DNA of 64,000 nucleotides from a bacterium (GTDB lineage Bacteria; Armatimonadota; UBA5829), in assembly GCA_021372295.1 (NCBI GenBank), contig JAJFUS010000043.1, forward strand, positions 1 through 64,000, written 5' to 3'. The notes beneath the pieces were generated by a model. It was not told the DNA's origin. It did not search any database and worked only from the letters and a program-made list of their open reading frames with translations. Positions 15,756-24,036 of the stretch are shown here, one piece after another; the first letter of the stretch is position 1, and each line of letters begins with the position of its first letter. The translations under genes and the position numbers were made by a program.

Positions 15756-15833
15756 AATACTTGACAAAAAACCGAAATGCTGCAAAGATATGCCTGATTG
15801 GTAAGCCTCAATTCTGATGTGGAGGTGCCGTCG

Positions 15834-17021
15834 ATGGGACATATCGCTGCTACGGTCTTGGACGCCGCCGATAGTCGGGTGTACGAATGTCTGCTGCCCG
15901 ATGATCGGGGTGCTGCCTGTGTTGCTGCCCGCCTCGCCGAGTTGATTCACCTTCCTTTGATCGGAACGGACAACAATCCTCTTGCTTACGGTCTCGTTCT
16001 CAAGCACGGCTGCGCTGTCGACCCTCAATCGAATCTTGGAGACCTGCGTCTGCCTAGTCATCCCACATTCCGGCTCGTTCCTACGCTTGTCGCGTGCAAG
16101 GAGACTTTGAGCTTCTCGTTTGACGATCCTCCAACTGCCGGTGACAAGCCGACGGAGGTAAGAATCCTGTCGGAAAACACGCTGATGAATGATGTGGAAA
16201 TCGGTCTGAAGTCCGATGTGCGGATAAACGCCGGCGTGCACAGAGAGATCGAGCGGTTCGCAGGCAGGGGTCGTCAGGTCGAGTGCGCCGGATTGCTGCT
16301 GGGAACTGCAAGCATGGAGGGACGCCAGCGCGTAATACATATCAAGGCGGCCGTGTCCGCAACTCAAGCCGAAGGCAATCGCACCAGTGTGACGATTGGA
16401 CTGGCCGCTTGGGAGTCGATGCTGCAGGTTCGCGATAAGGATTATAGCCATCTGGATGTGCTCGGTTGGTTTCACACCCACCCAGGATGGGGAGTATTTC
16501 TGTCGGATGCCGATGTGTTCATTCACAGGAACTTCTTTGCGCACCCGGACATGGTGGCCTATGTGCTCGATCCGACAGCCGGCAGAGACGGTTTCTTTTA
16601 TTGGCAGAATGGCAGGCTCACTTTGTGCCCGAACTACGGTCTAGTGGGCGCGGCTCTGGCCAAACGCCGTCGAAAGGGCGCTTTCCGGCGCACTGTGATC
16701 GCACTGATTGTGGCGACGCTTGCATATTTGGGATATGCCTACTTGCCGGTCGATAGAATGCTTGGATTTCTGCGAGAGAAGCCTCCGGCTAGAGTAGAGA
16801 AGCGGGAAGCGCCGCCGAAGCCGGTTGAGATTAAGGTGCAGGTATATGCGCTGCAAAGGGGCGACACGCTTTGGCGGGTGTGCCGTCGATTTTATGGACG
16901 TGGGGAACTGGCGGACGCTCTGGCGCGTTATAATTCTATAAATGAATCCGGTATGGCGAGTATGCGGCCTGGGCGGGAGATACGTATTCCGCCGAAGGAG
17001 TGGTTGGAGAAGGGGCGATAG
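15834..17021 (+). CDS. Ubiquitin-like domain / JAMM metalloprotease / membrane helix / LysM fusion protein
   Basis: A 395-residue multidomain protein. Residues 1-95 look like a YukD-type ubiquitin-like beta-grasp (ends HPTFRLVPTLVA). Residues about 125-280 are an MPN/JAMM domain with upstream Glu in QVECAGLLLG and the full zinc motif GWFHTHPGWGVFLSDADV (H-x-H-x7-S-x2-D), so it should be an active isopeptidase or deubiquitinase-like peptidase. A hydrophobic helix (about 285-310) follows, then a LysM domain with VYALQRGDTLWRVCRRFYGR. The ATG at 15834 has GGAGGTG 6 bases upstream. By the positive-inside rule the JAMM part is probably cytoplasmic and LysM outside. It stands alone with no E1- or E2-like gene nearby. 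JAMM and LysM are secure; the ubiquitin-like call rests on pattern only. Confidence 0.8.
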   Translation: MGHIAATVLDAADSRVYECLLPDDRGAACVAARLAELIHLPLIGTDNNPLAYGLVLKHGCAVDPQSNLGDLRLPSHPTFRLVPTLVACKETLSFSFDDPPTAGDKPTEVRILSENTLMNDVEIGLKSDVRINAGVHREIERFAGRGRQVECAGLLLGTASMEGRQRVIHIKAAVSATQAEGNRTSVTIGLAAWESMLQVRDKDYSHLDVLGWFHTHPGWGVFLSDADVFIHRNFFAHPDMVAYVLDPTAGRDGFFYWQNGRLTLCPNYGLVGAALAKRRRKGAFRRTVIALIVATLAYLGYAYLPVDRMLGFLREKPPARVEKREAPPKPVEIKVQVYALQRGDTLWRVCRRFYGRGELADALARYNSINESGMASMRPGREIRIPPKEWLEKGR

Positions 17022-17066: not shown

Positions 17067-17852
17067 TTGCAATTAGATGAATTCATGCAAGACATCGCCC
17101 TGGGCGCAGGGCAGATAATCAAGAGCAAGTTTCACCACATAAAGAAATGGCACACCAAAAGTGACCCCGGCGATATCGTGACCGAAGCCGATGAAGCCTC
17201 GGAAAAGTATGTGATCGATCGCATCCGGTCAGCGTATCCCGATGACCGCATCCTCTCCGAAGAAAGCGGCGCTATAGGCGACGGCAACAGTGGCCGCGTC
17301 TGGATAATTGACCCTCTGGATGGCACTCGTAACTATATGATGGGCATACCGCTTTTCTGCGTGTCAATCGGGCTGGCTATTGACGGCAGTCCTATAATGG
17401 GCACGATCTACGATGCCATACACGATGAAATGTTCTTCGCCGAGCGCGGCAAGGGAGCGTTTATGAACGGCGATCCGATCTCGGTTTGCAGAGAAGAGTC
17501 GCTGGAAGACAGCCTGGTTTCGGTGAGTTGGGTGCGGCGAAAAGTCGATGGACAGGCGTTTGTCGAGTATGTGGAACAAATTAGCAGGGATACATCGTAT
17601 TTTAGGAGGTTCGGTTCGGCGGCGCTGGTGATGGCATATATCGCGAGCGGCAGGATTCACGCCTATATGCAGGGCGGCCTTAATCCCTGGGATGTCGCTG
17701 CCGGTGTGATAATAATCGAGGAGGCGGGCGGAGTGGTGACCGACTTCCATGGCCGACCCATTGACCTGAGAAACCAGGACATCGAGATACTGACGGCCAA
17801 CCCGGCGCTTCACTCTATGCTGCTTCGCGATGTGGTGTCGCAGCGCGCTTGA
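17067..17852 (+). CDS. Inositol monophosphatase-family phosphatase
   Basis: A 261-residue Mg-dependent sugar or inositol phosphatase. Metal-binding motifs are all present: DIVTEADEASEK, ILSEESG (metal Glu pair), WIIDPLDGTRNYMMGIP (signature 1) and GGLNPWDVAAGVIIIEEAGG (signature 2). It could act on inositol-1-phosphate, FBP or PAP; the sequence does not separate these. The start TTG 17067 lies after AAGGAA; ATG 17085 is the alternative. Confidence 0.92.
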   Translation: MQLDEFMQDIALGAGQIIKSKFHHIKKWHTKSDPGDIVTEADEASEKYVIDRIRSAYPDDRILSEESGAIGDGNSGRVWIIDPLDGTRNYMMGIPLFCVSIGLAIDGSPIMGTIYDAIHDEMFFAERGKGAFMNGDPISVCREESLEDSLVSVSWVRRKVDGQAFVEYVEQISRDTSYFRRFGSAALVMAYIASGRIHAYMQGGLNPWDVAAGVIIIEEAGGVVTDFHGRPIDLRNQDIEILTANPALHSMLLRDVVSQRA

Positions 17853-22986: not shown

Positions 22987-24036
22987 ATGGCGAATGTAAT
23001 ATCCGAGGTAACGTCATCGCCGGGAATCGTGATGGTGATCGGCGGCGTGGACACCGGCAAGACCAACCTCTGCATGCAAATGTGCAACGCCGGTTTCGAG
23101 GCCGGGCTACCGACAGCCGTGGTTGATGCCGACTTGGGACAGTCCGAGATAGGCTCGCCGGGAACTATCGGTATGGCCATCGCGGACAGAGCCATCGAGT
23201 CGCTTTCCGATCTTCGAGCCAAGAGACTGTATTTCGTGGGGAGCACCAGTCCGGTCGGACATACGCTCGAAAGCGTTGTCGGGACGAAGAAGATGGTCGA
23301 TACTGCTCTCCGTTTGGGCGCAAAACTGGTCATTGTGGACACAACCGGACTCATCGACGGCCCAATCGGTCGCAAACTAAAGACCTGCAAGACCGACCTT
23401 ATTCGCCCGGACTACCTCATCGGCATCGAGAAGCACCGCGAGATCGAGCATCTGCTGATGCCGTTTACTAAAGTCAGTCCGATAAAGGTGCGCAGGCTCG
23501 CCGCGTCCGACGAGGCCAGGAGGAAACCGCCCGAGTTTCGCACGGCTCGCCGCAGGCTCAACTTCTACAAGCATTTTCACGACGCTCCCGGTCATATCAT
23601 TCGCCTGGACGACGTATCCTGCTGGAACACATGGCTCGGAACGGGCCGGCCGGTGAAGTGGCAGTATATCAAGTCGGCCGAAGAATCGCTGAAGCGCCGA
23701 ATCCTGCACGCCGAGGTCACCGGGCGAGGGATATTTATTGTAACAGAGCGTCGATGCAACGCAGGCGGATATAAGGCCGTCGAGGAGATATTCAAGACCG
23801 GCAACATCACAATTGTGGTAGGCGAGACGTTTCAAAATCTGTTGGTCGGGCTGGCCGACGAGAATGCAAACACGCTTAACGTCGGGTTGATTCAAGCAAT
23901 CGACTTCAAGCAGCGACTTATGTTCGTATTATCGCCGATAAGGACTATTTCGCCCGTAAAAGTGGTGCAATTTGGCGCGATACGTGTCATGCGCGACGGC
24001 ACCGAACTCGAAACACTCAAGCAGGGAGAGATATGA
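22987..24036 (+). CDS. Clp1/Grc3-type P-loop polynucleotide kinase
   Basis: A 349-residue protein with the Clp1/Grc3 kinase core: Walker A VIGGVDTGKTNLC (about 18-30), the distinctive VVDADLGQSEIGSPGTIGMA with the D-x-D-x-G-Q-S motif, and VDTTGLIDG after the Walker B strand. In eukaryotes and archaea these enzymes phosphorylate RNA 5'-hydroxyl ends. The C-terminal half (about 175-349) is a separate beta-rich region like the Clp1 C-terminal domain. The gene is coupled by ATGA overlap to a histidine phosphatase. Substrate is inferred. No strong ribosome site precedes ATG 22987. Confidence 0.8.
   Translation: MANVISEVTSSPGIVMVIGGVDTGKTNLCMQMCNAGFEAGLPTAVVDADLGQSEIGSPGTIGMAIADRAIESLSDLRAKRLYFVGSTSPVGHTLESVVGTKKMVDTALRLGAKLVIVDTTGLIDGPIGRKLKTCKTDLIRPDYLIGIEKHREIEHLLMPFTKVSPIKVRRLAASDEARRKPPEFRTARRRLNFYKHFHDAPGHIIRLDDVSCWNTWLGTGRPVKWQYIKSAEESLKRRILHAEVTGRGIFIVTERRCNAGGYKAVEEIFKTGNITIVVGETFQNLLVGLADENANTLNVGLIQAIDFKQRLMFVLSPIRTISPVKVVQFGAIRVMRDGTELETLKQGEI

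Follow-up and report, generated by a model that had tools for sequence, protein, structure and literature searches.

A YukD-type ubiquitin-like domain fused to a predicted membrane-tethered JAMM peptidase with a LysM domain in one Armatimonadota family

What role can a ubiquitin-like (Ubl) domain have on a deubiquitinase-type peptidase in a genome where no Ubl conjugation machinery is detected? This question is raised by a gene at 15834..17021 (+) in a 64,000-nucleotide stretch of Armatimonadota DNA (the window; genome G000, genus g1). The open frame starts with ATG, encodes a Ubl-JAMM-TM-LysM fusion protein of 395 aa (TM, transmembrane helix) and has a Shine-Dalgarno sequence, GGAGGTG, about 6 bases 5' of the ATG at 15834. 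An alternative TTG start at 15798 is possible and would add 12 aa. An earlier note on this DNA had read a Ubl-like domain, a JAMM protease, a helix and a LysM domain in this frame, and had proposed a survey of homologues for the same architecture. Nine more full-length copies and one fragment came from a search of 41 genomes, giving ten complete copies in all. Because nine full-length orthologues with 33-55% identity exist, chance is excluded for the fusion architecture, and an assembly or frameshift artefact is ruled out. These results indicate that the fusion gene is real.

Domain organization and predicted topology of the fusion protein

The N-terminal domain (residues 1-90, 15834..16103) had been called YukD-type by the earlier note from pattern only. 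AF2 applied to the domain alone predicted a beta-grasp fold for residues 1-92 with a mean pLDDT of 90.4. The best Foldseek matches were CsUb (6fnn) and a bacterial Ubl in complex with its deubiquitinase (8tyx); EccD of ESX-3/ESX-5 was also near the top, and the Ubls of USP4/11/15 were among the fold matches. A profile of fused Ubls, which took in two Leptolinea Ubls, matched the free Ubls end to end in hhalign with 99.1% probability. When the free-Ubl profile was run over the window's genome, the fused domain was the sole match (E 1.8e-6). Pfam YukD (PF08817) matched 3/10 fusion copies, the G001 orthologue reaching 39.6 bits against a cut-off of 27; the window's own protein lies below the reach of this Pfam family, and its residues 1-98 alone gave no Pfam match. 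The beta-grasp prediction, the hhalign match and the genome-wide profile match together confirm the Ubl assignment by fold and homology.

Talin/FERM domains and the toluene monooxygenase protein TmoB (Z 11) were among the best VIA-align rows for the Ubl model. This likeness reflects the common beta-grasp fold and was not read as a sign of function. Against viral structures, Foldseek matched ubiquitins and an assortment of proteins that contain a domain like this one.

A variable linker follows (residues 91-109, 16104..16160), which was unconserved and predicted with low confidence (pLDDT <50 at 92-103); the AF2 run on the fusion protein gave a pTM of 0.65. The JAMM domain occupies about residues 110-272 (16161..16649) and was detected by Pfam as JAB (129-234, 8e-12) and Prok-JAB (5e-6). 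Its MPN fold aligned to CsRpn11, Rpn11 and CSN5 with VIA-align Z values of 18.3-19.5. As the earlier note had observed, the JAMM motif is complete, with E150 in QVECAGLLLG and H214-x-H216-x7-S224-x2-D227. All five residues were invariant in 10/10 fusion copies, so the homologues keep every zinc and catalytic residue. The domain is thus catalytically complete by its residues and is predicted to be a metalloprotease. A search of a plasmid collection gave one weak match, covering the JAMM domain only.

The membrane helix and the LysM domain were also borne out. A single TM helix was assigned to residues 281-306 (16674..16751) from hydropathy and a predicted helix at 281-302; the only hydrophobic segment of the protein is 288-306 (hydropathy 1.97), and 7 K/R precede it. 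The LysM domain (residues 336-390, 16839..17003), predicted to be extracytoplasmic, was matched by Pfam above cut-off at 341-386 (1.4e-4). All ten complete copies matched both Pfam JAB and LysM, the best orthologue giving 8.4e-8 for LysM. Among the nine copies in which the helix is the top hydrophobic segment, K/R were more numerous before the helix than after it in 8/9, with four to seven preceding. By the positive-inside rule, this excess suggests that the Ubl and JAMM domains lie in the cytoplasm and the LysM domain on the far side of the membrane.

Distribution of the fusion and of conjugation genes

Of 291 genomes of the phylum searched, only members of the window's Armatimonadota family carried the full-length fusion. 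One pattern scan of 84,980 species, at the sensitivity of that scan, found no fusion outside Armatimonadota. In the set of 15 family genomes, four genera carried the fusion: g1 (five genomes, one by the fragment), g2, g3 and g4. A tree built from 44 JAMM domains placed the fused JAMMs in one clade with a support of 99/100, and the deeper placement of this clade was poorly supported. The single clade suggests that the fusion most likely arose once, in an ancestor of this family, and was then inherited. We also considered, and set aside, a recent operon collapse, in which a Ubl-E1-JAMM arrangement lost its E1; the fused clade was long-branched and did not fall within the operon JAMM-TM-LysM enzymes of the same genomes. 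Between two g1 members, dN/dS was about 0.09 for the Ubl domain and about 0.05 for the JAMM domain, and dN was far under dS in the Ubl, JAMM and LysM parts. These results show that both the Ubl and JAMM domains are under purifying selection in a genus where no conjugation machinery was detected.

The surroundings of the fusion gene are ordinary, with YidC, Jag and MnmE on the 5' side and an inositol-monophosphatase-family (IMPase) gene, an HtrA-like protease and a phosphodiesterase-like gene on the 3' side. The statement of the earlier note that no E1/E2-like partner lies within 8 kb is true. The IMPase gene (17067..17852, +) is directly 3' of the fusion gene; the two adjoin in the four genus members with a full flank and in G007, and in some genomes they overlap or almost abut. 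The IMPase gene was not found at this place in other genera, and the neighbour is no functional clue to the fusion.

The fusion gene is unlinked to Ubl, E1, E2 or RING genes, and none was found elsewhere in the genome. Neither in the draft assembly of G000 nor elsewhere in g1 or in one further genus did we detect an E2 (UQ_con), a RING, a free Ubl or an operon-type E1; G000 contains one generic ThiF-family protein. Its match to the operon E1 was weak (1.4e-14, compared to 1.3e-231 for the operon E1 of G007), and such weak ThiF-family matches in g1 are as expected of housekeeping relatives. E2, RING and free Ubl were not found in any of the five g1 members or in G005, which are metagenome-assembled, so that genes may be missed; four of the five g1 genomes have a completeness of 98-100%. 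Across the 15 family genomes, E2 was limited to g3, g4 and g5, and RING above cut-off likewise occurred only there. In g1 and g2, the sole match to the free-Ubl profile was the fusion itself. G005 also carries a second, different Ubl with a weak YukD/ubiquitin match, together with a 503-aa ThiF-family protein (L097, 1827-4547, -). This YukD-like match belongs to a separate Ubl/ThiF locus and was set aside.

The survey for linked E1 and E2 genes, also proposed in the earlier note, showed that operons of relatives carry both halves of the fusion as separate genes. Homologues of residues 1-90 also exist as separate proteins of about 90 residues, encoded beside JAMM genes on other contigs. Full operons contain Ubl, E1, E2, RING, FHA and trypsin-like genes and a JAMM-TM-LysM enzyme, and similar gene sets are present in several further Armatimonadota families. 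In G011 (L033), the order is E2, trypsin-like protease, Ubl, E1, JAMM-TM-LysM, three Prok-RING_1 genes, a second E2, a second JAMM and an FHA protein (UQ_con 1e-10, YukD 2e-14, ThiF 2e-54, JAB 6e-11, LysM 1e-6). Since such operons include the JAMM-TM-LysM enzyme, we presume that it is the deconjugase of a bacterial Ubl system. Burroughs, Iyer and Aravind reportedly described YukD/RING operons in 2011 and are said to have proposed that YukD-like Ubls are conjugated.

Other arrangements of these genes were also observed. In G012, the genes for Ubl, E1, E2 and JAMM, with roughly a dozen RING matches, are spread across many contigs (C7, C30, C35, C45, C62 and C120) and do not form one operon. In Leptolinea (Chloroflexota; L085, 5013-5921, +), one 302-aa protein joins a YukD-type Ubl to an E2 (UQ_con); its gene adjoins a JAMM gene, an FHA gene and a gene for a free Ubl with the ending DITAG. 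In this case the Ubl was taken up by another enzyme of the system. In Ignavibacteria and Bacteroidetes (L076-L084, e.g. L076 3959-5788), a JAMM-TM-LysM gene lies directly before an E2-like gene, and a third conserved gene there reads as gamma-carbonic-anhydrase-like; Ubl or E1 was not found in the flanks examined.

The Ubl tail and the function of the fusion

The tail of the fused Ubl, PTLVAC, aligned with PEITAG of the free Ubls, which places Cys88 at the position of the terminal Gly. A terminal Gly was present in 19/19 free Ubls, compared to 2/10 fused copies; the counts are not independent, because the fused copies form one clade. One of the 19 free-type Ubls is itself fused to an E2. In the free Ubls (e.g. 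L033 6638-6907 and L119 5533-5832), Ala-Gly was followed by 0-10 residues, within PE(I/V)TAG in Armatimonadota. Residues past Ala-Gly in several of them indicate that trimming is needed before activation. The last two tail residues were A-C, A-A, A-A and A-G in the window's genus, and I-G, I-S and V-Y in three other orthologues, with I-S and V-Y belonging to G006 and G010. At position 53, Lys/Arg of the free Ubls was replaced by Gly/Ala in the fused form; by alignment, this strand is the ubiquitin Ile44 strand. Of the features of a conjugatable modifier, the fused Ubl has Cys88 in place of Gly, and neither an operon-type E1 nor an E2 was found in its genome or genus (draft assemblies).

These tails bear on the view of the earlier note that the Ubl is the substrate of its own peptidase in a self-contained processing module. 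A reading near to this is that the JAMM domain cuts past the Ubl tail, at about residue 88, in cis or in trans, and frees the Ubl and a trimmed JAMM-TM-LysM protein. The fused tail does match the free tails, several of which need trimming, in length and sequence pattern. CsRpn11 cuts linear Ub fusions and tolerates Ala as the final residue, and bulky tail residues stop it (PMC6043591); self-cleavage of the fusion is to this extent sterically feasible. By analogy, the g1 tails, which end in two small residues, would probably pass this rule, and those of G006 and G010 would probably fail it. However, cleavage would yield a Ubl without its terminal Gly in 8/10 copies, the I-G, I-S and V-Y tails also count against cleavage, and no E1/E2 was found in g1 to use the product. 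Since the JAMM domain is intact in all copies and the Ubl tail is not, tail cleavage is unlikely as a common function. The processing module is therefore unsupported as stated, and we regard a self-processing precursor as fairly improbable. It is similarly doubtful that the fusion is a plain deconjugase of the YukD system, with the machinery missed in incomplete assemblies or another E1/E2 serving it. Both g3 and g4 contain the fusion and the whole operon together, and JAMM-TM-LysM is the operon's own enzyme type, but the absence of E2, RING and free Ubl extends to the 98-100% complete g1 genomes as well as to G005, and the ThiF-family protein of G000 is only a weak match to the operon E1.

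A decaying remnant of a former conjugation operon would account for the orphan position, the loss of glycine and the lack of a conserved neighbourhood besides the IMPase gene. It was already disfavoured and is very unlikely, as the frame is intact, the active site is invariant in 10/10 copies, dN is far below dS and the gene is retained in four genera. We consider it highly improbable, too, that the Ubl is an EccD/YukD-like component of type VII (ESX) secretion. EccD is a membrane-fused YukD-like domain and ranks among the best fold matches, but no WXG100 protein scored above cut-off in the genome (one sub-threshold match, 16.9 compared to 27.3 bits), and the closest sequence relatives of the domain are the operon Ubls.

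The reading that we favour, with about an even chance of being right, is that the fusion is a membrane-tethered JAMM peptidase whose Ubl serves as a fixed regulatory or docking domain and not as a conjugated modifier. A YukD-family Ubl would have been joined once to a LysM-type membrane JAMM in the ancestor of the family. The catalytic domain would face the cytoplasm, and the LysM domain, on the face of the inner membrane towards the wall, may tie the enzyme to the cell wall. We infer that the Ubl could dock in cis at or near the Ubl-binding pocket of the JAMM domain, or on a partner, and thereby gate or target the peptidase; such a regulatory role is suggested by analogy only. Where relatives have the operon, Ubl conjugates at the membrane may be the substrate; in the window's genus the substrate would have to differ from these. 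A further and more tentative proposal, for which we see clearly less than an even chance, is that a deubiquitinase-type enzyme with its own non-conjugatable Ubl as a built-in gate acts at the envelope without any Ubl conjugation in the cell, as a signalling protease derived from, and independent of, a bacterial Ubl system.

Relation to known systems

Both LysM-JAMMs and conjugation operons of the YukD type were known or predicted before. The LysM-associated JAMMs of YukD-Ubl/E1/E2/RING operons have the same JAMM-helix-LysM order and align over 127-389 with 33-34% identity; the fusion differs in having a YukD-type Ubl in front, in lying outside an operon and in belonging to a genus in which conjugation genes were not found. 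Free YukD-like Ubls (PF08817) have the same fold and match end to end including the tail, whereas in the fused form the Ubl continues into 300 residues of JAMM-TM-LysM. By Foldseek, CsRpn11 and CsUb of Caldiarchaeum subterraneum (PDB 6fnn) rank among the nearest solved relatives of the two halves (JAMM 28-29% identical). However, they are separate proteins with no helix or LysM described, and the Ub is processed to a Gly-Gly end. The work on CsRpn11 omitted a group of "bacterial lysM-associated JAMM sequences" from its map (PMC6043591). Mycobacterial EccD also has a membrane-fused YukD-like domain, but its membrane domain is multi-helix (12 helices; PMC1779556) and it has no peptidase. BilABCD and related bacterial ubiquitination operons (PDB 8tyx, 8tyz) likewise combine a Ubl with a JAMM deubiquitinase, in separate genes, with E1 and E2 in the operon and without LysM. 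Eukaryotic USP4, USP11, USP15 and USP14 offer an analogy in how they work, as each carries a non-conjugated Ubl in cis on a deubiquitinase; they are cysteine peptidases with a catalytic domain unrelated to JAMM.

As far as could be checked, in a check that did not cover the Burroughs papers, what is new and undescribed here is a Ubl that lacks its glycine, has been taken up by a deconjugase-type enzyme and persists without a conjugation system. If true, the loss of a conjugation system need not remove its deconjugating enzyme, which can persist by taking in the modifier as a domain; this route may also bear on eukaryotic Ubl-bearing deubiquitinases. It would also tie a bacterial Ubl system to the cell envelope via LysM, a recurrent and unexplained feature of the operons. 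Fused and free Ubls in sister genera form a natural comparison that is directly testable.

The window also encodes, at 22987-24036 (+), a CLP1_P-family polynucleotide-kinase-like protein (2e-34). This family, found here in a bacterium, is best known in eukaryotic and archaeal RNA processing.
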